A stretch of DNA of 54,825 bases from Thamnocephalis sphaerospora (Eukaryota > Zoopagomycota > Zoopagomycetes > Zoopagales > Sigmoideomycetaceae): assembly GCA_003614735.1 (NCBI GenBank), contig KZ992454.1, positions 1-54,825 on the forward strand, written 5' to 3'. The position numbers and the translations under genes were made by a program. Positions 2,515 to 54,825 of the stretch are shown here, one piece after another. The notes below the pieces were generated by a model. That model was given only the letters and a program-made list of their open reading frames with translations, ran no database searches and was not told the DNA's origin. Numbering within the stretch: position 1 is the first letter of the stretch; each line of letters begins with the position of its first letter.

Positions 2515-4016
2515 TTATGGAACACAGCAAAACAAGTGGCGGCATACGCACTTTTTCATGGCTAAACCAAGCACCACATCAGTATCAGAGTGAGCAACTG
2601 CAGAGCCTTTGCAAGGAAATGGCACTGGTTAGCCCAAGTGGTTGACGCATTTACGCCATGGGCACAGTATATGTATCCTATCGCTATTCGGTCGTCATGA
2701 AGGTAGCCGTTGAACAAACAAATTCATTCATCTTCACGCCAGATGGGTATTGCACGGCAACAATTACGTGAGAAACAAGTAGGATTCAGGACGGTGCGGG
2801 TGGTGAGCGGGCACGACCAGCTGGGCGGACCGCGAAATGCATTCGCCACATTCGCTTGGCGGGACAACATTTGTGCAAGTATGTTTCTCCATGCAATAGC
2901 TTATCACCATTTCCCAGCGGAAACCACTAGCGCGTATCTGCATACGAAAGGCTGCCAAGCAGCTTGGTCGCGACTGACAGGGGTTGATATGGCGGAAAGA
3001 TAGTACCACTCGTTGAAAGAATGATCGGCACTGGTCTTGCTCGAGCGCGGAAGGTATATTAGCCAGCGTTAGACGCGTCGTATTTCGGGCAAAGGGTCGC
3101 TGGTACCCGGAAGGGAGGACAAGCCCACATTGGCTACAGTGTGAATAAACTTGTTTTGGGACACTCGTGTGACGTAGGAAACTATGTCAATGGGCCATTG
3201 TAAAATTCCACCATTCAACCTGTAGGTACTGCATGAATGGCGCTGACGAAGCGCTACGCTGCGTGCGCCATATGTCGCCTTGTAGTGGCGTTCTCTACGC
3301 ACAATATGCTGCGTTCTTGTGGTCACGATACAGAGTTAAGAGACGTCGCATACATCTGTATATCTCGCTAAACCTACCGCGCTCATGTATTCACGCACGC
3401 AGCTTGAGCGAAAAGTACGCGGACGGCTTTGAAAGGAAATCCACCGTGAGCCCGGGGCCAAACACGACAGACACTGCGCAGATGTTTGATAGCTATGCTT
3501 CGCAAGCAGTAGCTTGCAACCACTCGCAGCAACGCAGCACGCGTACAAAGCGACAGATGCCGCTCGCGTTGCCCAAAGCGCTGCGTCGCTTGCTCTACGC
3601 GCTACCGAAAACGCTGCGGCGTACTACGCATACCATAACAGGATGCAATTCTTGCAACACAGCGATCGCAGGTACTAGTGGCAAACGCTTTTGGTAAACC
3701 GGCCTTCGCACTGCCGTACGCATACAAGCATTATTCGGTAGTTACAGGATAGAAGAAGAAAAGCTAGCATTCGCGCGAGTAGGTGCAGGGGCAGGTTTGC
3801 AGTTTGAAATCGATAACATATTTAAGAAGCCTCACCGCTGCTGCTGCTGCTGCTTGGTTCACATTGTGCTTTCACATCGCTTATCCTCTGCACATATACA
3901 GCCTTTATTCTTCAAACCGCCGCAATAGCCAAGCACTACAGCAAAGCCTAATGCTCAAAAGGCTACGTCGCTCTTTGGTACACTACGAAGAGCACGGTGC
4001 CGACAACAGCTACGCT
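2515..4016. other. Intergenic, shared 5' region of the F-box gene and OPT 1
   Basis: About 1.5 kb between divergent genes. A plus-strand frame at about 3485-3678 stays open for some 60 codons, is Ala-rich and coding-like (for example KATDAARVAQ, ATENAAAYY), but has no ATG and no clear splice partner. A short CTG/GCT run lies at about 3838-3856. No gene is assigned. Confidence 0.35.
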
Positions 4017-6248
4017 ATGACCAATACTGGCCCTACACCCATGGCGCGCGAAACTAGCGAGGCCGAACGCGCGGAGCAGCCGACCGACGTGGCTACTGGA
4101 CTGCTCCCCGAAAAGGAAGACGGATCCAGCGAGTCCGGCGAGCAAAGTAGCATCAGCGACAGCAACGACGAGGATGACTCTCCCTACGCGGCGGTGCGCG
4201 CCACAGTCAGCAACAAGGACAATACCGCGTTGCCCAGCCTTACGTTTCGCTTTTGGATCATGGCAGTGCCAATTTCTATTGGCACTGCTTTCTTTAATAC
4301 TATATTCTCGCTGCGCACGTTCACCATCAGCATCGGCGGCGTTATGGTGACACTCCTGACGCTGCCGCTCGGCCGCTTTCTCGCGCGCGTTCTGCCAAAC
4401 AAGGAGATTGGCGTTGGTCAATTCCGATTTTCGCTCAATCCCGGTCCATTCAATGCCAAGGAGCATTTGCTCATCAGCATCTGTACCAGTGCAACCGGCG
4501 TAGCATATGCGCTAGAAATTATTGTCATCAAAAAGATATTCTACCAGTCAGACACACCGCTCCTCGGCTCGCTGCTGCTTACACTCACCACGCAGTGTAT
4601 TGGCTACGGCCTGACCGGGTTTTTCTACAAGCTACTTGTTCGGCCAGCAGCCATGATATGGCCCGCAACCCTGATTGACGTTGCCATGTATCGCGCCTTT
4701 CACGAGCAAGATGGGCATGGTGACCAAGGTGCAAAACGCATGCGCTTCTTTCTGATAACGGCCGGCATCAGCGCACTCTACTACATTGTTCCCGGATTTC
4801 TCTTCACTGGCCTTTCTACCATCTCCATTCTTTGTCTGGCCATGCCAAACAATTTAATTGCCAACCAGATCGGCTCGTTTACCAAGGGCCTTGGCGTACT
4901 GTCGTTTACCCTCAACTGGAACAGTCTAGTCAGCAGCCTAGGCAGCCCGATGGCAATGCCGTTCTGGGCGATTGTCAACGCATTTGTAGGCTTCGTCATC
5001 TTGGCCTGGATCATTACACCGGCAGGATTCTACAGCAACGTCTGGAATGCACAGCAATACGGACTGCTAAGCTCGGCGCTATACAAGGCCGATGGCGAGC
5101 CATACCCGTCACTGGAGCTGTTAAACGAAGATCTGTCGCTCAATGAGGAAAAGTATGCCGAAATAGGCCCGCCGCGCATATCGTTCATGTTTGCCAATTC
5201 TTACGGCATCGGCTTTGCTGCGATGGCGGCCATATGGGTTCATATAATCATATACCACGGTAAGGACATGCTGCAGCGTATCCGTACGTCGCGCTCTACC
5301 GCAGACGATGTCCACGCACGCCTCATGGACAGATATCCAACGGTGCCGCATTCGTGGTACCTCATCACGCTTGTTGTCAGCACCGTGCTAGCCATTTTCA
5401 CCTGTGAGTACTACGACACCCAGCTACCCTGGTGGGGCGTGCTGCTGGCTATTGTCACTGCAGCATTCTTCACTTTGCCGATTGGCATTATCCGCGCCGT
5501 GTCGGGGCAGGCACCTGGTCTGGACATCATCACCGAGTTCATCATCGGCTATCTATTGCCGGGAAAGCCTATAGCCAACGTAACCTTCAAGACCTACGGC
5601 TTCATCTGCATGGCCGATACCATCACGCTTCTCAAGGATCTCAAGATCGGACACTACATGAAAGTCCCTCCACGACACATGTTTATTGCGCAGATGGTTG
5701 GCACCCTTGTTCCTGGCACCGTTAACGTGCTGGTGACTTATCTTCTGTTTGACATGATGCCGGACCTCTGCTTCCACAAGGACTGGCTTTGCCGCGCACC
5801 ACGCGTCTTCTTTAGCTCATCTGTTGTCTGGGGGCTCATTGGCCCCAAGCGCATGTTTGGCCCAGAAGGCTACTACAACGCGCTGCTCTGGTGGTTCCTG
5901 GTTGGCGGGCTTTTGCCGATTCCGTTCTGGCTGCTCTCTCGGCGCTACCCAAACTCCTGGGTCAAGTACATCAACGTTCCCGTGGCCCTCACCAGCGTCT
6001 CGGGCATTCCGCCGTCATACACCGGCGCCTATCCGATCTGGTTTCTTGCCGGTACCCTGTTCCAGTTCTATCTGTTCCGCTATCGCCAGCGCTGGTGGTC
6101 GCGCTACAACTTTGTGTTGTCGGCAGCACTGGATGCCGGAATTGCCTTTACAAGCTTCATCATATTCTTTGCCTTTACCAACAACGGCATTGGCCTAGAC
6201 TATTGGGGTACTCGCGAGGACTGCCCGCTTCTTAAAAATGATCCCTAG
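4017..6248 (+). CDS. Oligopeptide transporter, OPT family (copy 1)
   Basis: An intronless 743-residue protein if started at ATG 4017 (purine at -3); an in-frame ATG at 3951 would add 22 residues. It is a multipass membrane protein that imports small peptides (and in some members metal chelates or glutathione) with protons across the plasma membrane. Family marks visible are: an acidic N-terminus ending in DSPYAAVRATVSNKD (near residue 60), NPGPFNAKEH (residue about 141), TQCIGYG, RPAAMIWP, FIIGYLLPGKPIANVTFKTYG, GHYMKVPPRHMF, and a C-terminal WWSRYNFVLSAALDAG followed by a Trp/Cys-Pro tail. Length is normal for fungal OPTs. It is paralogous to the genes at 12361 and 34652. There is no neighbour on the same strand and no regulatory element I can name. 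Confidence 0.93.
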   Translation: MTNTGPTPMARETSEAERAEQPTDVATGLLPEKEDGSSESGEQSSISDSNDEDDSPYAAVRATVSNKDNTALPSLTFRFWIMAVPISIGTAFFNTIFSLRTFTISIGGVMVTLLTLPLGRFLARVLPNKEIGVGQFRFSLNPGPFNAKEHLLISICTSATGVAYALEIIVIKKIFYQSDTPLLGSLLLTLTTQCIGYGLTGFFYKLLVRPAAMIWPATLIDVAMYRAFHEQDGHGDQGAKRMRFFLITAGISALYYIVPGFLFTGLSTISILCLAMPNNLIANQIGSFTKGLGVLSFTLNWNSLVSSLGSPMAMPFWAIVNAFVGFVILAWIITPAGFYSNVWNAQQYGLLSSALYKADGEPYPSLELLNEDLSLNEEKYAEIGPPRISFMFANSYGIGFAAMAAIWVHIIIYHGKDMLQRIRTSRSTADDVHARLMDRYPTVPHSWYLITLVVSTVLAIFTCEYYDTQLPWWGVLLAIVTAAFFTLPIGIIRAVSGQAPGLDIITEFIIGYLLPGKPIANVTFKTYGFICMADTITLLKDLKIGHYMKVPPRHMFIAQMVGTLVPGTVNVLVTYLLFDMMPDLCFHKDWLCRAPRVFFSSSVVWGLIGPKRMFGPEGYYNALLWWFLVGGLLPIPFWLLSRRYPNSWVKYINVPVALTSVSGIPPSYTGAYPIWFLAGTLFQFYLFRYRQRWWSRYNFVLSAALDAGIAFTSFIIFFAFTNNGIGLDYWGTREDCPLLKNDP

Positions 6249-12360: not shown

Positions 12361-14586
12361 CTAGTCGAGAAGCGGACAATCCGGCTGATTGCCCCACCAA
12401 TCAAACTCGATGTGGTTGTTCTGGAAGGCCCAGAAAATGATGAAGCTACCAATGGCCACACCTGCGTCCAGACCTGCAGACAGAATGTAGTTGTAGCGCG
12501 ACCACCAGGTGCGACGATAGCGGAAGACGAGGAACTGGAAAATAAAGGAGAGAATAAACCAGGTTGGGAAGGCGCCAGTGTAGGCAGGCGGAATGCCACC
12601 GACACACGCAAGCATGACGGGAATGTTGATGTACTTGACCCACGACTTGGGATAGCGGCGCGACAACAGCCAGAACGGCACCGGAAGCAACGCGCCGATC
12701 AAAAAAAACCACATAAGGATTGAATAGTAGCCTTGCGCGCCAAACATACGATCAGGGCCGATTACACCCCAGATGACAGAGGCAGAGTAGAAGACGCGGG
12801 CGCTACGGCAGCTCCACTCGGGGTTCAGCTTTGGATCGCAAATGCCCTCGACGCTGAACATAAGGTAGGCGGCGATGACATTGAACACGCCGGCAATAAT
12901 GGTGCCCGTCATCTGCGAGATGAACATGTGCCGCGGTGGAATCTTCATGTAGTGGCCGAGCTTGAGATCGCCGAGAAGGACAATACCCTGGTACATGCCG
13001 ATGTAGCCATATGTTTTGAACGTAACGTTGGCCATCGGATTACCCGGTAGGATGTAGCCGATGACAAACTCGGTGATGATGTTGAGGCCGGGCGTCTGTG
13101 TGGATATGGCCGTAATAATGCCGATGGGCAGGATAAAGAATGCAGCCATGCCGATGGAGAGTAGCACGCCCCACCACGGCAGCTGCGTGCCGTAGTACTC
13201 GCAGACGAATACCGACAGACCAGTGGAGATGGCGAGAACGGCAATGTACCACCATTGAGGTGCCGGGTCGTATTTGTCCATCATCCTAGCGTGAATGTCG
13301 TCGGCACCGCGCGACTCACGGAAGCGACGAACAATGTCCTTGCCGTAATAGAGGAAAACGTGCGAAATGACGGCAGCCAGTCCAGCAAAGCCGATGCCGT
13401 AGCACATGGCAAACATAAAGGACATGCGCGGCGCGCCCACCTCGGCATATATATCCTCCTTGATGTTGAGTGTCGCCTTATCGACCAGATTAAGTGTGGG
13501 ATACACCTTGGCGTCAGGCGTGAAGAGGCCAGAGCTGATAAACGGCAGGTTGATCGACTCGAGCAGGTTGTTGTAGTAGCCGATTGGCAGCAGAATCCAG
13601 ATGAGAACGATAAAGCCCACAAAGCCGTTGGCCACCGCCCAGAACGGCATCATCAGCGGCGACACCACGTTGGCAGTGATGTTGGACCAGTCCAGCGTAA
13701 AGGACAAAACGCCCATGCCCTTGGTGTAGGATCCGATCTGGTTGGCCAGCACGTTGTTGGGCATGGCCAGGCAGAGAACAGAGATGGCCGAAAGCATGGT
13801 GAACAGGTAGCCCGGCAAGAAGTAGTAGATGGCACTGGCGGCAGTAACCAGCAGGAAGAAGCGCATGCGCGTCATGCCACCCACGGCGCCCTCATCTCGG
13901 TCGTGGAAGGTGCGAAACACGGCAACATACATTAGGTTGCTCGGCCACATCATGGCTGCAGGGCGAACCAGATACTTGTAGCAGACGCCAGCCAGACCGT
14001 AACCGACACATTGCGTGGTGAGCGTGAGCAAGATGGAGCCGATGATGGGCGTGGGCGAGTGGTAGAATAGTTCTTTGATGACGACAATGTCGACGGCGTA
14101 TGCGACACCGACAGCAGAGGTGACGCAGGTGGTCATAAGGGCGTGTTCCTTGGCGTTGAACGGTCCGGGATTGAGAGAAAAGCTAAATGGGCCGACTTTG
14201 ACAAGGCGGTCGGGCAGCACGCGGGCTAGCCAGCGACCAAGCGGAAGGATGATGAGGATAATGACCGAGTTACCGATGGAAATGTTGATGGTACGGAACC
14301 AGAACATTTGATTGAACATGGCCACGGCGATGGTCAGCGGCACGGAGATGAGCCAGAAGCGGAACGTGAGTGTGGGTAGGCTGGGATCGTCCTTGTTGCT
14401 GACCGTCGCGCGCACCACGGCGTATGGCGAGTCTTCCTCGCCATCTTCGTTAAAGTACGGCTTGCTGTCGTCGACCTCCTCAAATTCATCCAAATTCTCA
14501 ATGTATCCCTTCTTTTCGGTGCGCGGGTCTTTGGCGTGCGCCTGTTTCTCGTCTATCTCTTGCATCTCTTGTGCCGAGGCAGACAT
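12361..14586 (-). CDS. Oligopeptide transporter, OPT family (copy 2)
   Basis: Intronless, 741 residues, ATG 14586. The same architecture as the copies at 4017 and 34652: a charged cytosolic N-terminus ending EDSPYAVVRATVSNKDD, then NPGPFNAKEH, TQCVGYGLAG, RPAAMMWPSN, FVIGYILPGNPMANVTFKTYG, GHYMKIPPRHMF and a terminal WWGNQPDCPLLD. Predicted role is proton-coupled import of short peptides at the plasma membrane. This start is well supported: the frame opens with MSASAQEM at about the same distance from the conserved motif as in copy 1. The C-terminal DCPLL ending is shared with copy 1, so these two look like the closer pair. Confidence 0.93.
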   Translation of the reverse strand: MSASAQEMQEIDEKQAHAKDPRTEKKGYIENLDEFEEVDDSKPYFNEDGEEDSPYAVVRATVSNKDDPSLPTLTFRFWLISVPLTIAVAMFNQMFWFRTINISIGNSVIILIILPLGRWLARVLPDRLVKVGPFSFSLNPGPFNAKEHALMTTCVTSAVGVAYAVDIVVIKELFYHSPTPIIGSILLTLTTQCVGYGLAGVCYKYLVRPAAMMWPSNLMYVAVFRTFHDRDEGAVGGMTRMRFFLLVTAASAIYYFLPGYLFTMLSAISVLCLAMPNNVLANQIGSYTKGMGVLSFTLDWSNITANVVSPLMMPFWAVANGFVGFIVLIWILLPIGYYNNLLESINLPFISSGLFTPDAKVYPTLNLVDKATLNIKEDIYAEVGAPRMSFMFAMCYGIGFAGLAAVISHVFLYYGKDIVRRFRESRGADDIHARMMDKYDPAPQWWYIAVLAISTGLSVFVCEYYGTQLPWWGVLLSIGMAAFFILPIGIITAISTQTPGLNIITEFVIGYILPGNPMANVTFKTYGYIGMYQGIVLLGDLKLGHYMKIPPRHMFISQMTGTIIAGVFNVIAAYLMFSVEGICDPKLNPEWSCRSARVFYSASVIWGVIGPDRMFGAQGYYSILMWFFLIGALLPVPFWLLSRRYPKSWVKYINIPVMLACVGGIPPAYTGAFPTWFILSFIFQFLVFRYRRTWWSRYNYILSAGLDAGVAIGSFIIFWAFQNNHIEFDWWGNQPDCPLLD

Positions 14587-28608: not shown

Positions 28609-30654
28609 ATGCAGTACGTAACCATCACTGCCCTGTTGGCAGTTTTTGCCGCCGCAGGTGCTGTAGCCTCGCCTTCCTACGGTGGTGAGGCGCCCCCCAG
28701 TGGTAACTCGCCGGCTCCGGCTTATGGTGGCAGCTCCCCGGCTTCGGCTTATGGCGGCAGCTCTCCGGCTTCGGCTTATGGTGGCAGCTCTCCGGCTCCG
28801 GCTTATGGTGGCAGCTCCCCGGCTTCGGCATATGGTGGCAGCTCTCCGGCTCCGGCATACGGTGGCAGCTCCCCGGCTCCGGCTTATGGTGGCAGCTCCC
28901 CGGCTCCGGCTTATGGTGGCAGCTCACCTCCGGCCTATGGTGGCGAATCTCCAGCTGGATCTCTCCCGCCGGTGCCTGTCTATGGCGACGAGATGCAGTT
29001 CCCGAACGTCACTGTGCCATCCAACACGACGAACAGCACGACGAACAACACGGTGCCATGCACCAAGTGCACTGGCACGCAGCCGTCTACCGTTCCTGTT
29101 GTAACGCCGCCAGTCACCAGCACACCGTGCAACGAGTGCAAGACTTCGTCTCCTGTGCCCACCACCACGCCGTGCACCGAATCCCTCAAGGTGCCGAAGC
29201 CCAGCACTACAACGCCCTATCTGCCGCCTGTGTCCACGCAGGTCGAGCGTGTTGAGGTGCCCACTCCGTACCAGCCATCGACCAAGGTCCCCGCGACGCC
29301 GTACCAGCCACCGGTCGATCGTGTCAATGTGTCCACTCCGTACCAGCCATCTGCCAAGGTCCCCGCGACGCCGTACCAGCCGCCGGTCGATCGCGTCAAT
29401 GTGCCCAAGATGCCTTGGACCCCGATCGAAGGCGGTGAACTGTCGGGTGGCCAGACTCGCTGCCCCGAGTGCAAGTGCGACACCAACAACACCGTGGTCT
29501 CTCCGACTACCGTTACGGTTACTGGTACGGCTACCACCGTCACGGTGCCAGGCCCGACCACGACCGTCACCGTCTCTGGCCCTGCGACCACCGTCAGCGT
29601 GCCAGTGACGCGCGCGACCACGGTTCCGGTCACCGTGACGGTCCCGGTCACCTCGTATGTCACCGTGCCGACGCGCGTGGTCGAGACGGTCCCGGTGACC
29701 TACACGATCACCTCGCCGGTCCCGATCCCGACTCAGGTGCTGAAGACGGTCGAGGTTCAGGTGCCGTACCCGGTCACCACCACGGTCATCAAGCACATCG
29801 AGACCAAGGTGCCGTACCCGGTCGAGAAGCCGGTCGAGGTCAAGGTTCCGGTCTACGTGCCTGTGCCGAAGCCGTATCCGGTGAACGTCGAAGTCCGAGT
29901 GCCTGTTCCTGTGTCGATGCCTGTCCCTGTGTCGGGCCAGCCGGGTGGCGTCTCTCCAGGCTCCAGCTACCCGCCGGTGTCGTCCGTGGCGCCGCCCTGC
30001 ATCACCGGTGACTGTGTGCCGGTGACCCCGAAGCCGAAGAAGCCGTGCACCAGCGGCTGTGTGCCAGCGGCCCCGAAGCCAAAGAAGCCGTGCACCTCGG
30101 GTCAATGCACTCCAGTGTCGTCGGTGGCTCCTGAGACCCCGTGCAGCTCTGGCCGCTGCACTCCGGCTCCAAGCTACACTCCGATCACCGGCTCTGCGCC
30201 AGGTGCGCCGTGCAACAGCACCAACTCTACCGTGTCCAACTCCACCAACTACGGCAACGTATCCAGCGTGCCGGTGCCCTCCACCTACGGTGGCCAGGTC
30301 TCGGTGGACACACCGGTGCCCGTGACCTACGGCGGTCAGTCTCCGTCGAGCATGCACGAGACTCCGGCTTATGGTGGCCAGGCCCCGCCGAGCCTGCCAA
30401 ACACTCCCGCCTACGGTGGTCAGTCTCCGTCGAGCACCCCGTCGACCCCCGCCTACGGTGGCCAGGCCCCGCCGAGCCTGCCAAACACTCCCGCCTACGG
30501 TGGTCAGTCCCCATCTAGCGCCCCGTCGACCCCTGCCTACGGTGGCCAGACTTCTCCCATCAAGAGCTACGGCATGAATTCTTCGCCCAAGAGCGACGAT
30601 GACGAGTACGAGTCCATCGATGACGACCAGCCGTACAAGTCTCTCGCCGCCTAA
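28609..30654 (+). CDS. Secreted repeat-rich wall/mucin-like protein
   Basis: Intronless, 681 residues. A clear signal peptide (MQYVTITALLAVFAAAGAVA, cleavage near AVAS) is followed by tandem 9-residue repeats SSPAPAYGG or SSPASAYGG (about residues 35-110). Next are Thr/Asn/Pro-rich linkers with CxxC pairs (PCTKC, CNEC, CPECKC), a duplicated TPYQPP...VDRVNV unit, a long Val/Thr/Pro beta-like region (TVTVTG, VPVTVTVPV, VPYPV), KPKKPCTSG repeats, then C-terminal PAYGGQ repeats alternating SPSS and APPSLPN. It ends acidic, with no hydrophobic GPI tail. Strong third-position C/G bias suggests high expression. Likely an extracellular coat, adhesive or wall component; the family is not recognised. 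Confidence 0.85.
   Translation: MQYVTITALLAVFAAAGAVASPSYGGEAPPSGNSPAPAYGGSSPASAYGGSSPASAYGGSSPAPAYGGSSPASAYGGSSPAPAYGGSSPAPAYGGSSPAPAYGGSSPPAYGGESPAGSLPPVPVYGDEMQFPNVTVPSNTTNSTTNNTVPCTKCTGTQPSTVPVVTPPVTSTPCNECKTSSPVPTTTPCTESLKVPKPSTTTPYLPPVSTQVERVEVPTPYQPSTKVPATPYQPPVDRVNVSTPYQPSAKVPATPYQPPVDRVNVPKMPWTPIEGGELSGGQTRCPECKCDTNNTVVSPTTVTVTGTATTVTVPGPTTTVTVSGPATTVSVPVTRATTVPVTVTVPVTSYVTVPTRVVETVPVTYTITSPVPIPTQVLKTVEVQVPYPVTTTVIKHIETKVPYPVEKPVEVKVPVYVPVPKPYPVNVEVRVPVPVSMPVPVSGQPGGVSPGSSYPPVSSVAPPCITGDCVPVTPKPKKPCTSGCVPAAPKPKKPCTSGQCTPVSSVAPETPCSSGRCTPAPSYTPITGSAPGAPCNSTNSTVSNSTNYGNVSSVPVPSTYGGQVSVDTPVPVTYGGQSPSSMHETPAYGGQAPPSLPNTPAYGGQSPSSTPSTPAYGGQAPPSLPNTPAYGGQSPSSAPSTPAYGGQTSPIKSYGMNSSPKSDDDEYESIDDDQPYKSLAA
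28705..28940 (+). repeat. 27-base coding tandem repeat (YGG repeats, N-terminal)
   Basis: About eight near-identical units encoding [SP]-rich octa/nonapeptides with YGG; differences are mostly GCT/TCG exchanges (Pro-Ala-Pro versus Pro-Ala-Ser). Prone to copy-number change. Confidence 0.85.
30325..30550 (+). repeat. Coding tandem repeat (YGGQ repeats, C-terminal)
   Basis: Several copies of a PAYGGQ-type unit with alternating spacers; two-unit blocks of roughly 100 bases repeat almost exactly, consistent with unequal crossing-over or slippage. Confidence 0.8.
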
Positions 30655-34651: not shown

Positions 34652-36991
34652 ATGGTCTTCAAGCGAAAACCGCCGGGCCGCACCCGTAGCGTCTATGCCA
34701 CCTCTTTTGCATCCACTCTGGCCGGTGACAACGAGCCATACGGCGCAGATCGAACGCATCCCTCCGTGGTGGACAGCGCCGGCGACCCGCTGGATGATGA
34801 AGACTCGCCGTTTGAGATTGTGCGCGCCACCGTCAGCAACAAGGACGACGGCACACTGCCGACGCTTACGTTTCGCTTCTGGCTGCTGAGCATCCTGTTT
34901 ACGGCAATTCTTTCGTTTGCAAATCAGGTGCTGGCATTCCGCGACTATTCCATTCTCATTTCGCCCATCGTGGTGCAGCTTGTTTCGTTTCCCCTGGGAA
35001 AAGGCCTCGCTCGTGTGCTCCCTGACTGGCATGTGCATCTGGGAACCTTCAGCTTTCGCCTGAATCCCGGGCCGTTCAACATGAAGGAGCATGCGCTGAT
35101 CATTGCCTGCGCCAACTCTGCATCAGCCGTGGCGTACGCAGTGGATATCATCGTGGTGCGGCGTATCTTTTACCAGGTAGATCGCGGCTTCCTGGGCGGT
35201 CTGTTGCTGGTGCTCACCACACAGTGTCTCGGCTATGGCCTTGCCGGCATCTGTCGGCGCTTTCTGATCCGGCCTGCAGCCATGATTTGGCCGGCAAACT
35301 TGGTTTCCGTCGCGCTCTATCGCACGCTGCACGAAGAGGCAGATCTAGAAGCGCTTGAGACAGATGCCGGCGGCTCAGGCGCAGTCGGCGGTGCTCGGAG
35401 CATCACTAGCGGTGCGTCGCATATGACTAGCCAGAGGGCCACAACGCGAATGCGATTTTTCATGATAGCCACGCTGGGAAGCTTTGCGTACTACTTTTTG
35501 CCAGGCTATCTGGCCAGCTTTCTGGGCGCCATCTCTATCCTGTGCCTGATCCATCCCCACAGCCTACTTCTCAACCAGCTGGGCTCGGGCCGCCACGGCC
35601 TAGGCATCCTGTCCTTTTCCCTTGACTGGAACAACGTCATCTCGTTTCTCGGTTCGCCCATGGTCACACCATTCTGGGCCAGCCTGAACCTGTTTGTTGG
35701 ATTCGTCATCGTCTGCTGGATTCTGCTTCCGATCGGCTACTACAGCAACTGGTGGAACGCAAAGCAGTTTCCAATCATTGGCGCTGACGTATACGACATC
35801 AACGGCAAAAGCTATCCGGTGCTGAGTGTGCTAAACAAGACAACCTGGTCGCTGGACGAAACCCTCTACAAGCAGTATGGCGAAGGGTACATGTCGTTTT
35901 ACTTTGCAATCAGCTACGGGGCTGGGTTTGCCACGCTGGGAGCGGTTGTCGTGCACACCATGCTGTATCATGGTCGCGAGATTATGGCACGCTTGCGCGA
36001 TGTGCGGACAGGCGCCGAGGACATTCACGCGCGGCTGATGGATCGCTACCAGGAGGTGCCCAACTGGTGGTACGTTACCGTCCTGATGCTCAACACCGGA
36101 CTGGCCATCCTTACCTGCCACCTGTATGACCTGGACCTGCCCTGGTGGGGTCTGTTGCTGGCTGTTTTGATGGCAGCGGTGTTTATCGTGCCTATCGGCA
36201 TCATCACCGCCATTGCCAACCAGACACCGGGCCTCAACATCATCACCGAATTCATCATCGGCTACCTGCTTCCCGGTCGGCCTATTGCCAACATGACCTT
36301 CAAGACCTATGGCTACATTTCTGTGGTGCAGGGTATTAGCTTTCTTGGTGATCTCAAGCTCGGCCACTACATGAAGATTCCGCCGCGCCACATGTTTCTG
36401 GCGCAGATGATCGGCACCATCATAGCTGGCGTCATCAATCTCGCCACTGCCTACCTGATGATGAATATTGTGCCCAATCTGTGCGCGCCCGACGGCAACG
36501 TGGCAGCAACACGGTGGTCGTGTAGCAACACGCGCACTTTTTACTCGGCGTCCATCATATGGGGCGTCATTGGCCCAAAGCGTCTGTTCAGCACGACGGA
36601 AAGCCTCTATTCACCTATTCTCTGGGCTTTTCTTATCGGCGCACTGCTGCCGATTCCTTGCTGGCTGCTGGCTCGCCGATTCCCCGGCTCCTGGCTGGTG
36701 TATGTGCACGCCCCCATTCTTTTGTCGGCCACATCGCTGATGCCGCCGGCCCGACCGGCAATGTACAACACCTGGATTATCGTTGGCTTTGTCTTTCAGT
36801 TTGTCATCTACCGCTATCGGCATCACTGGTGGAGTCGCTTCAACTATGTTCTCTCCGCAGCACTGGAGACGGGCACTGCGCTGGGTGCACTGGTTGTGTT
36901 CTTTGCGTTCCAGCTACGTCGCGTGCACCTGGACTGGTGGGGCAACAATGATCTATGTCGGGCAGATCTCGATCACAGCAACACCTCATAG
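34652..36991 (+). CDS. Oligopeptide transporter, OPT family (copy 3)
   Basis: Intronless, 779 residues from ATG 34652 (MVFKRKPPGR). The family motifs are in the same order as the other two copies: DSPFEIVRATVSNKDD (residue about 55), NPGPFNMKEH (about 138), TQCLGYGLAGICRRF, RPAAMIWPAN, FIIGYLLPGRPIANMTFKTYG, GHYMKIPPRHMF, WWSRFNYVLSAALETG and a final WWGNNDLC. It differs by a Gly/Ser-rich insertion of about 25 residues (35370-35430) in the loop after the RPAAMIWP helix and by a hydrophilic tail. Predicted plasma-membrane importer of small peptides. The frame is open upstream of the ATG with no better start; an additional 5' exon cannot be excluded. Confidence 0.93.
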   Translation: MVFKRKPPGRTRSVYATSFASTLAGDNEPYGADRTHPSVVDSAGDPLDDEDSPFEIVRATVSNKDDGTLPTLTFRFWLLSILFTAILSFANQVLAFRDYSILISPIVVQLVSFPLGKGLARVLPDWHVHLGTFSFRLNPGPFNMKEHALIIACANSASAVAYAVDIIVVRRIFYQVDRGFLGGLLLVLTTQCLGYGLAGICRRFLIRPAAMIWPANLVSVALYRTLHEEADLEALETDAGGSGAVGGARSITSGASHMTSQRATTRMRFFMIATLGSFAYYFLPGYLASFLGAISILCLIHPHSLLLNQLGSGRHGLGILSFSLDWNNVISFLGSPMVTPFWASLNLFVGFVIVCWILLPIGYYSNWWNAKQFPIIGADVYDINGKSYPVLSVLNKTTWSLDETLYKQYGEGYMSFYFAISYGAGFATLGAVVVHTMLYHGREIMARLRDVRTGAEDIHARLMDRYQEVPNWWYVTVLMLNTGLAILTCHLYDLDLPWWGLLLAVLMAAVFIVPIGIITAIANQTPGLNIITEFIIGYLLPGRPIANMTFKTYGYISVVQGISFLGDLKLGHYMKIPPRHMFLAQMIGTIIAGVINLATAYLMMNIVPNLCAPDGNVAATRWSCSNTRTFYSASIIWGVIGPKRLFSTTESLYSPILWAFLIGALLPIPCWLLARRFPGSWLVYVHAPILLSATSLMPPARPAMYNTWIIVGFVFQFVIYRYRHHWWSRFNYVLSAALETGTALGALVVFFAFQLRRVHLDWWGNNDLCRADLDHSNTS

Positions 36992-49496: not shown

Positions 49497-49661
49497 CTAC
49501 CTAGTAGCGCCAGTTGTAGGGGTGGCGCCATTACCGGTAACTTGCTTTGGTTTGCTATCTGAAACGGTGCCAAATCTGCCTGGCGCGGCCTCTACAGTGA
49601 TGCTCGTCGAGGCAACAGCCAGAAGCGCGGGCAGAGCAAACAGCACGTAGGAATACTGCAT
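49497..49661 (-). CDS. Small secreted peptide, family copy A (C-terminus altered)
   Basis: 54 codons from ATG 49661 to TAG 49497. The hydrophobic signal peptide (MQYSYVLFALPALLAVAST) and the EAAPG cleavage region match copies B (50557) and C (52342). Beyond that the mature part is short and polar. Compared with copy B at the base level, one G is missing around 49519-49523; the reading frame therefore leaves the shared aromatic ending and stops at a shifted TAG after TTGATR. An ancestral stop lies in the other frame at the homologous place. Either a decayed copy, a functional variant or a base error. Confidence 0.6.
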   Translation of the reverse strand: MQYSYVLFALPALLAVASTSITVEAAPGRFGTVSDSKPKQVTGNGATPTTGATR

Positions 49662-50556
49662 GCTGATTAGACTAGTTGCAATGGCTAGCTGTGAGCAATT
49701 ACAGAGCGTGACAGTAGATGCAGGTACGTGAGGGGGCGTGTGTGGGCACTAGCTGGCGATACTGGTATGGCATAGTAGTGCATAGCGTCCGCTATATACA
49801 CTTGCCGGTGCCAGTTACCAGGATTTGCAAACATTTGTGATAACAGGGCATCCGTTAATTATTAATCATGCATTGTGCCCTCGCGTTCCGCCTCTTTGTA
49901 TCTTATCGAGCCACTTGAGCTATCTGTGATGTGCTGCTTTACATCTGTCCAGCAGCTTCGCCCACAATCTAGTCGAAGCCATTTTTGCGCAGTGATCGCT
50001 CGCACCGCTCCTCTGGCGCGCACTTGTAGCAGTGCCTCGCAGCATTCAATGATACATGGTCTTTATACGCATATTTCTATTTATCACAAGTATGCACAAA
50101 AAACCAAGTCTGTGTGGACGATAATCGTACGCTGTCGCGGTAACCGCCAAGCAAAAGCAAAGCATTTCTCGGTGAGTTGAAGAGGTCATTTTTACCCAAA
50201 AAGTGATGCTCGGTTCTGACCGGATGCGCACAAAACTAAACAGAGGGCGCAGACAAAGGCTGGGATTCATGTGTAGCAACCATAGTGCACTATTTTAATA
50301 ACCTCAAGTTTTTCACTGCCGCCGCCATGCTCTGCTGGCACGAAGCATTATTGCTATAGTGTCATTCGCGGTAGCTAGTGGAAAAGTAATCGTTTTACAT
50401 AACAGGCGGAAAAGGCTGCATCGTTTTCGAAAGTAACCGCCGAGTAGGCTGGCTTCCGTTTTGCGCTGTTATCCACAGATTAAAGGCGCAAGAACGTGCC
50501 TGGCATGTTTAACTCGACCCTTCAGAGGCATTGACCGAGTCAGCGGCTAGTGCTAC
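49662..50556. other. Intergenic between peptide copies A and B
   Basis: Promoter of copy A at the left end, 3' flank of copy B at the right; no gene seen. Confidence 0.4.
49793..49800 (-). promoter_or_regulatory. TATA box of peptide copy A
   Basis: TGTATATA on the minus strand, about 135 bases upstream of ATG 49661, at the same distance as in copies B and C. Confidence 0.6.
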
Positions 50557-50712
50557 TTAGTAGTGCCAGTTGTACCGGGTGCCGCCGCCAGTGACTTCTT
50601 CTGGCTGGCTGCCAGGAAGGCCGCCAATACCAGGTGCAGCCTTAACGACGTTAGCGGTTGATATGATGGCCAAAAACACGGCTAGAGCAAGCAAGGCATG
50701 GGTGCACTTCAT
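50557..50712 (-). CDS. Small secreted peptide, family copy B
   Basis: 51 residues from ATG 50712 to TAA 50557. A signal peptide (MKCTHALLALAVFLAIISTA) is followed by the conserved segment APGIGGLPGS, a short Gln/Glu linker, a Gly-rich turn and a terminal RYNWHY. After removal of the signal the mature product would be only about 26 residues. The sequence TTGGCTTTGGCTAATTTTCTC before the start is similar to that of copy C. The antisense strand also stays open, which I treat as a shadow. Function unknown: a secreted signal, antimicrobial or effector-like role are all conceivable and none is shown by the sequence. Confidence 0.65.
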   Translation of the reverse strand: MKCTHALLALAVFLAIISTANVVKAAPGIGGLPGSQPEEVTGGGTRYNWHY

Positions 50713-52341
50713 ATTGAGAAAATTAGCCAAAGCCAACTGGCTGCAGGTGGTAGAACAGTGCAAGTTTGTATACAATTGCGCAAGGAAGGCTAAAGTGCGG
50801 TGGTCGGTGATGTCGATGGAGCAGATCAACATACAGTACAGGCTGTATATCTGCCAGCCTATACCGGCGTCAGGTAGATATCTGCTTACAGCCAGCACTT
50901 GCTTGACTCTTGCCTGCTGTGCTACGCATGCTGCACTGTCATTTGACCTTTCAGTCGCAGCCATGCATAAGCCGTGTCTGCCAAAGCGAAGACTTGTGTA
51001 ATGCACTATACGTCAGTCGAAGCATGTGGAGCTTTGAGCGTTGAAAATTACCCATATTGGTGACATCAACCCTCCCCATTTGGCAGCGTTTAATATCCCT
51101 CTCGCCCCAATCCGACTAAAGGCAGGCTTTTACTTCATTACTGGTGTGCGCTATCAAGGCAGAAGTGTGCATTGGACCCTCATTCAGTGATAATATCGTC
51201 TTGCTCTGGTGGCCCTTGTTAGCATGATGCACGGTCGGCTCATTCCGTGACCCTAGATTAGAGCTGTGGCTTTGCATTGGGGAGCACCGACGCGAGCGTC
51301 AGCAAGTAAACACCAGGACTGTCCATGGGCTTACGACCTTAGCGCTTTCTGGATGCCTGGCGGTGACCATAAGCTTAGAGCCACTTTTGGCAAAACTAGC
51401 TAGCTTTGCTGTACACTTGGCCGGTGTTCAACGCACAAACCAGTCGTGCCGCTCGGCGTAACAGTCAACGTCATAAAACCGCTACTTCTGTAGCACCATC
51501 GTGCTCGAAACGCGCCAGCCAACATGTCGCCCACCGTCTATGTTCAAGGCCTACGTCTACAAGGCAAGGACTACGTGCAACGCTGAAAGAAAGCACAAGC
51601 AGAGCTGCTACCCGGTGCGTCAGTATGCCCGTCCACTGGCGGACCCACCAAACTCAAGCAAATTATCACGTGGAAATTCCCCAGCTGGTACCACGTCGGC
51701 TGTTGCATGTCGCCATGCGTTAGTGGAAAGCAGGTGGCTATGGTGTTGGTATACCAAACATAGCGTGTCTTTACACCACCCCCGAAAACGAAACTGTACA
51801 TCAACACGGTTACCCGTCGCTTCACTGCTACGCATCATTGCTCACGCGCCTGCGGCGTTGTGCCACGCAAAATTTACAACGCTGTGTATGTTTGTGTGCA
51901 ACAGAGTCGAAAACCTGCCAAGTCGCGCGGCCGACTATCACCGCAATCCCTGTGGTTGTTATCACGATAAGCCGCGCAGTTTTGCGCCATTCAGCAACCA
52001 TAGAAAAGTAGCAATAAGTATGATGGCTCCACACCACTTTCAAGGCAATCGGCCAGATAGCTAGCAACAGAGTATAGTGTACGGGTGAATGCGAGTCAAC
52101 TAGACCAAGCGCACAGTGGGAGGCAGATGTGATCGCACGTCACTCCATAGCTTGAGTGATACTCTAATGCACTTGTATAATGTGAATAGATCATTCATTA
52201 GCAATATGTAACAGGTTGCAAGAACGGTACGCTGTCCGTGGGGCCAGGCGTATAAACGCGGGCAGAATAGTCGGCCTAGCCTTGCTGCTGGCATGAGTAA
52301 ACTGAGCGCTTGCCTTGTCCCGCTAGAGCAACAGCGACTGC
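50713..52341. other. Intergenic between peptide copies B and C
   Basis: 1.6 kb. Contains the copy B promoter at its left end. The plus-strand frame at 51501-52064 is long but has no domain, signal or biased codon use that I can see. Confidence 0.35.
50845..50852 (-). promoter_or_regulatory. TATA-like box of peptide copy B
   Basis: GATATACA on the minus strand, about 137 bases upstream of ATG 50712; weaker than the boxes of copies A and C but in register with them. Confidence 0.5.
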
Positions 52342-52533
52342 TTAGTAGCGCCAGCCAAAGCGGCCACCACCGCCGCCAAGGGGATCCTCCGGATCGCAGT
52401 CTGGGTCTTCAGGATCACATGTGGGCTCGCTGCCAGGAAGGCCACCAAGGCCAGGAGCGGCTTCAACAACGACGACAGTCGAAGCGACGGCCAGAAGCGC
52501 GGCCAGAGCGAGCAGAACGTGGGTGTACTTCAT
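52342..52533 (-). CDS. Small secreted peptide, family copy C
   Basis: 63 residues from ATG 52533 to TAA 52342. Signal peptide MKYTHVLLALAALLAVAST, then APGLGGLPGS as in copy B. It carries an extra acidic insertion made of two CDPEDP units (two Cys seven residues apart), a five-Gly run and a terminal RFGWRY. The leader bases ATTAGC...AACATG upstream (about 12-24 bases before the ATG) resemble those of copy B. Of the three copies it has the strongest TATA box. The insertion looks like a tandem duplication within the gene. Confidence 0.7.
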   Translation of the reverse strand: MKYTHVLLALAALLAVASTVVVVEAAPGLGGLPGSEPTCDPEDPDCDPEDPLGGGGGRFGWRY

Positions 52534-54825
52534 GTTGATGAGATTAGCTGAAGTCAAGTATTAGTGGGTGGTTACAGGAGAGAGATGGCTTTGGGTGGAA
52601 GTAGACAAGAGGCAGCTGGTTGAATGACTGGTGATGATATTGGGTCCAGAGCGTTGCGCGGCGCTGCATTATATACACGCCGTTGCTGCTCGCTGCAACA
52701 CTGTGGAAACTAGCTAGAACCCTAACTATGACCATATTTGCTACTATAAGCTGCGCACAACACCCCAATAAGCGATTACCATTTTCGCAAGCACCAATGC
52801 AGTATTGGTCGGCCGGCCACAGCTGCGTCCAAAGAACAGCTGCTTGGAACAAGGACTTGTACAGTGCATCATGCGCCGGAGGAGCGTGATCCACCTAGAA
52901 AACAGACGGCAGCTCAATTTGGTAGCGGTTGGCGGTGCATATAGTAATTCCCAATCCGGCAGTCGCCCAATATGGCCAACTGCCTGCTCAGCACCAGTGT
53001 CAGGCCATTGCACACCCATCGGCTGCAGTAGGCATGCACTGCTAGGTAGTGTCGACTAGAGGGCCAGCGGCGAGACTGCCAGCTTCCGATACTTGCTTGT
53101 CCTCTCGCGCTGAGTCGTTTGTAAACGATCTCCGCCGTGTGCTTCGTGGTTACTACAGTCCGCAAGAGTTACCAAGCAACAGCGCTGATCTTCTCTAGGC
53201 TTGAACCGCAGTGCCATTTACGGAAGGCGGCGCAAGGAACATCTACGTAGGTGTTGGCAAATGGATTTCGAGATTACCTACTTAGAGAGTCGCCTGCGCC
53301 GACCGCACGCTCGAAGCCTACAGCGAGCGCAGTGTGACGTAAACCACTGGATGCAGGACAGGAGACGGTCTGATTAGTGCAGACAAGGCTTGCCGATTTG
53401 GACTACGTAGTTGGCAGGCTCTAGCATATGCCAAGAAACACAGCGCCGGTCCTTGGTCGAACAGCGCTCAAAGACAGCGTGATCTAGTGGTACCATGATG
53501 GTGCTTGCCGTGAAACTGCCGAGGCGTGATGATTACACGGGCACAAGCCTTCGCAAGAATGCGGGTTTGTCTATGGCAGCGGCAAGAATGTCGCCGCCGC
53601 GCAGCCTCGCTCTGCTTGAGTCCTCCACATTGGGCAAAATACTGTGCACTAGCAACAGCAGCCAAGGCAGCCTGGGACACAAAGCGCAGGCGTATTTGGA
53701 AGGGTCGCTGTAAAGCGATGATCATGCTGTTGGGTTGCGGACTGCGCCGCGCATCAGCACCAAGTGCAAACGCTGCCAGCCTGCCCAAGAGACCGTGACC
53801 CGGTGCGTCAAAAGACGGGTATAGCAAACCGGTTTCAACCACCGTTTACTCGGGCTCCTGCCGATGAGAAGGCGATGCGAGTCGATCGACTTGGAGCCAC
53901 AGTTAATTACTCGTATGCATTGTAAAGCAAGAGCACGTAAAGGCTTGGTGGTTCAACCCGGCACTCGCCTGCAGGGATGGAGCTGGAAAAACTCCCGTTA
54001 ATACAGCGCATCATTTGATAGCATAGCCCACACAAGCGAGCAAAACCGCAAGTCGATAGAGTACTAGGCAAAATACACGGCGCATGTATAGCACAAATAT
54101 AGCCTGGACGGGTTATTGCGACTCATAAAAGCGCAAGATTCTGCCTGGGCTAGTCGTCTGCCTTAGTGTTAAAATTGCTCTTGTGCTACCTATTCCTTTG
54201 CGTGCAATCTCCGCTGCCCATGCCATGCTCTGGCAATGACGGCGGAGCTTGCGAGGTGTGTCAATTGCACCTTGATGGATGTAGGCAGTTGGTTAGGCAG
54301 GGTGTGAGAATTAGCTGCGCCAATACGCAGTTTACCGGTGTGGCCTATACGTCGGACTGCAAATTACGTGTGCACAGTGCAACAGGTGTAGCTGGGCCAA
54401 CCCGCCATGGATAGGAAAGCACGAAAGGGCACGGGTTTTGCTGTGCACGCTAAATTAGGCTTTGCACACTGAAAGCAAACTTTACAGTAACAAGCGTGGG
54501 CCATACAAAGGCTAATAGGCGATGCGCGTGTTGTGTGCAAATCGATGCTACGGCCATATTCGCAACTGTATAGCTGCCGGATGTGCGCTGCCAGTTCTGC
54601 ATCGCGCCGCTATGCTGCGGCCGTGCAAAAGCACTTGAATACTGGTTCTGCGATCGCTGCAAAGTAGATCGCCGAATGACATTACGTACCAGCTATTCAA
54701 TTTTTGCCGCTACTAGCAAAGATTCGTGCTTACAAAAGCGCGCTAGGTTGAAGGCGCGCTGAGGAGCCTTTGTAACGTGCGGGCCTCCAACCGCACGTGT
54801 TTTCCATTTTCCATACAAGTATTGC
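52534..54825. other. Intergenic to window end
   Basis: 2.3 kb with no supported gene. Contains the copy C promoter and, at 54166-54414, a Cys-rich open frame without an ATG (see findings). Confidence 0.35.
52669..52676 (-). promoter_or_regulatory. TATA box of peptide copy C
   Basis: GTATATAA on the minus strand, about 137-142 bases upstream of ATG 52533. Confidence 0.65.

Follow-up and report, generated by a model that had tools for sequence, protein, structure and literature searches.

A family of short, predicted secreted peptides with a conserved aromatic C-terminal tail in the mycoparasite Thamnocephalis sphaerospora

Introduction

Several kinds of short fungal peptide enter the secretory pathway from small precursors. 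The precursors of dikaritins carry a signal peptide and short aromatic-rich blocks in Kex2-bounded repeats, and a UstYa-type oxidase goes with them. Among the pheromones, Saccharomyces cerevisiae alpha-factor has a C-terminal Tyr, and STE3 receptors take lipidated pheromones. In the part of PMC6265332 on which we draw, alpha-factor type precursors are described as carrying tandem copies of the peptide and dibasic sites for processing by Kex2, and the part of PMC9723739 used here describes fungal small secreted proteins as having a signal peptide, fewer than 300 residues and no further membrane segment. For the obligate mycoparasites of the Zoopagales, no description of secreted peptides was found in the open-access literature searched. 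These fungi are hard to grow, and the family described here is small and well bounded, with one conserved tail that lends itself to direct synthesis and testing.

Thamnocephalis sphaerospora is placed in the Zoopagales. According to the relevant part of PMC6784888, strain RSA 1356 was kept in dual culture with Cokeromyces recurvatus, co-assemblies were built from pooled reads of single- and multi-cell libraries, and the mycoparasites studied there were considered obligate. Here we analysed a window of 54,825 bases, which is contig C31 of the 14,455,036-base, 594-contig assembly of this fungus, and in which an original prediction had placed a family of three short secreted-peptide genes.

Results

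Members of the family

The window carries three minus-strand genes, A, B and C, each with a signal peptide followed by AAPG, as had been predicted, and the E-values placed their kinship beyond chance. A genome search with gene C as query returned gene B at E=5e-9, copy A at 9e-6 and gene F at 2e-9, with three further genes lying outside the window. Genome searches with the members gave six distinct genes in seven places, each a single exon, so that the predicted relationship among the three window copies stood and the family proved larger than the window:

Contig C31 (window), 52342..52533, minus strand: gene C, 63 aa, with a signal peptide, a predicted cut between VEA and APG, a 38-residue acidic and Gly-bearing product with two Cys, and the tail GGGGGRFGWRY
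Contig C31, 50557..50712, minus strand: gene B, 51 aa, with a signal peptide, a predicted cut between VKA and APG, a 26-residue product and the tail TRYNWHY
Contig C31, 49497..49661, minus strand: copy A, a 54-aa frame retaining the signal peptide and AAPG, with the family tail out of frame
Contig C31, 49501..49518, minus strand: tail DNA of copy A (YNWRY-stop), in a frame different from that of its signal peptide
Contig C15, 50195-50344, plus strand: gene D
Contig C15, 51665-51814, minus strand: gene E
Contig C408, 11975-12136, minus strand: gene F, repeated on contig C532

E-values between the listed member matches ranged from 8.4e-20 (E-D) to 5.9e-3 (C-D). Copy A was linked to B and C only; A was absent from the matches listed for queries E and F, and those listed for query A included none of D, E and F. 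The reading frame of copy A ends in TPTTGATR, outside the family tail; either the copy is broken or the assembly contains an error here. Contig pieces C408:5001-13536 and C532:1465-10000 were 100% identical across the 8,536 bases common to both pieces compared, which reflects redundant co-assembly contigs or a very recent duplication; because of this identity, gene F was counted once.

The window contains three genes for oligopeptide transporters within a span of 33 kb (3951-6248 plus, 12361-14586 minus, 34652-36991 plus), and each of them is a single long open frame. A protein search with one of the three gave matches named T. sphaerospora or Syncephalis at 49-67% identity, against 45% for C. 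recurvatus; judged by these matches, the window's oligopeptide transporters are zoopagalean, host carry-over being a general possibility. The window also encodes, at 28609-30654 on the plus strand, a long protein rich in Pro, Ser and Gly, which starts like a signal peptide and contains PAYGG-type repeats; Pfam gave no match to it at E<=0.01.

The product and its C-terminal tail

The five intact members (B, C, D, E and F) comprise 49-63 residues and, at the predicted cut, would give products of 26-38 residues; the cleavage site of C was predicted by the (-3,-1) rule for signal-peptide cleavage. By eye, each intact member has a single hydrophobic stretch, which is N-terminal, and no further membrane segment. 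The shared segment APG[I/L]GGLPGS of B and C and their endings YNWHY (B) and FGWRY (C) were found as predicted. The gaps among the five intact copies are whole codons.

All five intact members end in W-x-Y-stop. Their tails, RFGWRY, RYNWHY, RYNWRY, WYNWRY and RWGWRY, give the consensus [R/W][Y/F/W][N/G]W[R/H]Y. The residues invariant across the five (gene C numbering) are M1, K2 and seven more in the signal peptide, including A25, followed by P27, G34, G55, W61 and Y63. The tail DNA pattern gave nine matches genome-wide, namely the seven family places, covering all six genes, and two others, and the reversed pattern gave none. The two other matches, on contigs C45 and C300, were rejected as chance, as the family N-terminus was absent before them.

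The mature parts of B, D, E and F contain no Cys, and that of C contains two. AlphaFold2 placed one helix in precursor C, at residues 4-24, and no structure thereafter (mean pLDDT 58), a low-confidence model from five sequences that shows only a lack of prediction.

Promoters

A TATA-like box had been predicted upstream of each window gene. This was correct for A and C, and gene B has only a weak element (GATATAC):

Contig C31, 52670..52675, minus strand: TATATA box of gene C, at -142 from the ATG
Contig C31, 49793..49798, minus strand: TATATA box of copy A, at -137 from the ATG
Contig C31, 50846..50849, minus strand: weak TATA-like element of gene B (GATATAC), at -137 from the ATG, with no TATAWA

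Across the family, TATAWA was present in five of the six genes, at -137 (A), -142 (C) and -144 (D, E and F), D and E sharing theirs by recent homogenisation; the predicted matching promoter layout is therefore common to five of six members. For the strong expression that had also been proposed, a TATA box is no more than suggestive. The chance of a TATAWA per 50-base stretch was 0.5% in the sequences used. With D and E counted once, the element occurred in 4 of 5 (p about 3e-9), a value that is indicative, as the stretch was chosen after the sites had been seen. TATAWA was found within 250 bases of the first in-frame ATG in none of the 11 long open reading frames of the window, some of which are shadow frames whose first ATG may not be the true start.

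Substitution patterns

We applied Nei-Gojobori counts to the ten pairs that the five intact members form; as each gene enters several pairs, these are not independent. All ten pairs had a dN lower than dS when the whole coding sequence was counted (dN 0.11-0.58 vs dS 0.48-1.54). The synonymous share of changes exceeded the neutral expectation at p<0.05 in eight of the ten non-independent pairs (p 0.002 to 0.037) and showed no excess in B-D (p=0.26) and B-E (p=0.37); neutral substitution between copies, which the original prediction had named as counting against it, was not the case in those eight. Judged from these patterns, the genes look genuine, and purifying selection appears to have largely maintained them.

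The constraint is uneven along the product. The dN of the mature middle exceeded that of the signal peptide in 10/10 pairs, and pN was lower in the tail than in the middle in 9/10, the exception being C-B; by these measures constraint is weakest in the middle of the mature part. In the middle, dN was higher than dS in B-D (1.32/1.18) and B-E (1.75/0.64), estimates made unreliable by alignment and saturation, and diversification of the middle in these two pairs is not excluded. In the six-codon tail alone, dN equalled or exceeded dS in four of ten pairs (C-F, B-E, B-F and E-F), a comparison that rests on very few sites and is hence little informative.

The window copies had also been taken as recently duplicated. 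This was not borne out: the dS of B/C is 1.06, with synonymous sites near saturation, so that the B/C duplication is not recent, and a recent event was seen only in the pair on contig C15.

Probable gene conversion in the C15 pair

Genes D and E stand 1.3 kb from each other in inverted orientation. Upstream of the ATG, back to -345, 335 of 345 columns were identical, and 56 of 57 in the first 19 codons (97-98%), compared with 67 of 90 (74%) in the remaining coding sequence, which covers the end of the signal peptide and the mature part; the 3' flank matched at 153 of 309. The homogenised tract differed from the remaining coding sequence with a Fisher p of 5e-11. This drop from 97-98% to 74% indicates gene conversion, and the simplest reading would be an old duplication followed by recent conversion across the promoter, the leader and the greater part of the signal peptide. 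The pair clearly illustrates homogenisation of promoter and signal peptide alongside a mature peptide that, for the most part, still differs. From one case it cannot be said whether selection set the conversion breakpoint.

Of the 24 differences counted between D and E, 13 fall at third positions. Diversifying selection on their mature part was rejected on the basis of its dN/dS of 0.20/0.86. Farther upstream of the tract lies a degraded repeat (67%), and a DNA search of the genome gave no third copy of the promoter and signal-peptide cassette.

The stretch separating D and E holds a zf-RVT remnant, from a reverse-transcriptase zinc finger (C15:50706-51098; 27.7 bits vs cut-off 27.5). Spread of the family by a retrotransposon was considered and rejected as a general link, because none of the seven zf-RVT matches in the genome fell on contigs C31, C408 or C532; one of 14 control genomes matched, below the cut-off.

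Searches for relatives

The searches covered the protein database, Pfam, NCBIfam, PDB and viral and prokaryote contigs, with other Zoopagales DNA (Syncephalis, Piptocephalis) left out. Pfam gave at best 13.9 bits for six proteins against a cut-off of 27, NCBIfam at best 12 for five proteins against a cut-off of 125, and PDB no sensible match (best E=0.27). A search of the protein database with the five-sequence alignment returned none of 3403 candidates at E<=1 and none at E<=10, in a set limited to proteins sharing 5-residue words, where distant relatives could be missed. Similarly, none of 57 pattern matches in viral contigs and none of 126 in prokaryote genomes was confirmed. The family's own copies were not returned from the protein database either (E<=10), so the genes appear not to be annotated there. 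The prediction of a duplicated gene family of short, putatively secreted peptides without a described relative is supported within the sources searched.

Neighbourhood and candidate machinery

A Pfam scan of ten neighbouring pieces revealed nothing common to the three loci, with no shared pathway or enzyme domain and four pieces without a match. On C408, two multicopper-oxidase pieces are no more than 4 kb from gene F, and a helicase piece is also close to it; a C15 neighbour is a glutathione S-transferase piece, and a window neighbour is a Kelch/BTB protein. The two oxidase pieces are on opposite strands (3013-4005 minus and 4906-6174 plus in piece coordinates). The Ste2 profile PF02116, searched exon by exon, and the UstYa profile PF11807 each gave no genome match, and all 14 controls were silent for both as well. 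A STE3-like seven-helix candidate was seen at C184:17784-18422; neither its genome-search score (26.5 bits) nor its hmmscan score (22) reached the cut-off of 29.2, and the controls were silent.

Discussion

Our tentative choice, held at somewhat less than an even chance, is that these genes encode a family of short secreted ligands of the mycoparasite T. sphaerospora that act through their C-terminal tail, probably where the parasite meets its fungal host. Most of the genes stand behind a TATA promoter, and the product would enter the secretory pathway through its signal peptide, be cleaved behind the Ala of [VA]-x-A, and be released whole as a 26-38 residue peptide that is probably disordered, bears Gly and is often acidic. 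The middle may serve as a loosely constrained spacer, and binding of an extracellular partner would fall to the C-terminal [R/W]-aromatic-[N/G]-W-[R/H]-Y, whose carboxyl end is free. Contact with the host is suggested as the most likely site of action by the obligate mycoparasitic habit, a prior rather than a result. Against the ligand reading stand the two pairs without synonymous excess (B-D and B-E) and the non-independence of all ten, the four pairs in which tail dN equals or exceeds dS, the missing link of copy A to D, E and F, the low-confidence model, products lacking the high Cys content of typical effectors, and ten scanned neighbouring pieces with no pathway in common.

A long shot, in our estimate, is that the family represents free-C-terminus peptide ligands with a receptor of their own, that is, a hormone or pheromone system arisen outside Dikarya, which would work without Kex2 processing. 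Gene conversion would then keep the cassette of promoter and signal peptide uniform, and new ligands would arise as the mature part behind it changes.

Set against a ligand acting at host contact, a self-signal is unlikely, though it deserves real weight: the peptide would be a pheromone or colony hormone with a free C-terminal Tyr, alpha-factor-like, whose receptor lies in the fungus itself. A short secreted peptide with a conserved aromatic C-terminus and Tyr last fits this, as does the below-cut-off STE3-like candidate (26.5 and 22 bits vs 29.2), but these peptides are unlike the lipidated pheromones that STE3 receptors take. Ste2 gave no match, though no control genome matched either. Each gene has a single copy of the tail, and a dibasic pair was found in only one of five intact products (KK in E), leaving four without a dibasic Kex2-type site, unlike the precursor layout in the part of PMC6265332 used here.

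A cell-wall or spore-surface peptide, whose Tyr/Trp tails would be cross-linked into a matrix by oxidases, is rather improbable. Its composition would suit such a role, Gly making up 15-32% of the intact products and three to four of the last six residues being aromatic, and the multicopper-oxidase pieces lie close to F; against this, the products lack polymer-forming repeats, and among the ten pieces scanned the oxidases stand beside F only.

We regard a RiPP precursor as quite improbable. The aromatic C-terminal hexapeptide would then be the core, cross-linked as in dikaritins, and a conserved aromatic block after a variable part agrees with this; Kex2-bounded repeats are absent, no enzyme domain is common to the ten neighbouring pieces scanned, and UstYa gave no genome match, with silent controls.

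An antimicrobial or host-toxic role, the former among the functions originally suggested, is highly improbable. Tails rich in Trp, Arg and Tyr occur in some membrane-active peptides, and this tail resembles them, but charge gives no support (net -6, -1, -2, +2 and +2 for the intact products C, B, D, E and F), and no helix was predicted past residue 24 of C.

That these are no genes at all, being chance open frames or decayed repeats, is barely credible: one of six is frame-broken, two of ten pairs lack a synonymous excess and the protein database does not return the copies, but the frame is kept with whole-codon gaps over five copies, with synonymous excess in the other eight pairs, 13/24 D-E differences at third positions and a shared promoter.

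Comparison with known systems

Dikaritin precursors share with this family the signal peptide and a short aromatic-rich block; here there is one block, at the C-terminus only, and no Kex2-bounded repeat. Alpha-factor type pheromones, the Ste2 ligands, are likewise secreted peptides with aromatic residues and a C-terminal Tyr, but in comparison with their description in the part of PMC6265332 used here, the combination of Kex2 dibasic sites and tandem peptide copies was not found: the family lacks repeats throughout and dibasic sites in four of five products, and its peptides are 26-38 residues long rather than 9-14. From the candidate effectors treated in the part of PMC9723739 used here, the family differs in not being high in cysteine, in its conserved C-terminal motif and in the purifying selection seen in most pairs. 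In kind, it belongs to the fungal small secreted peptide families, which are already known as such, with a tail that is undescribed as far as searched. With the small secreted proteins and candidate effectors of that source it shares a signal peptide, a length far below 300 residues with a single N-terminal hydrophobic stretch in all five intact members, the lack of a recognised domain, a small paralogous family and a bearer that parasitises a living host.
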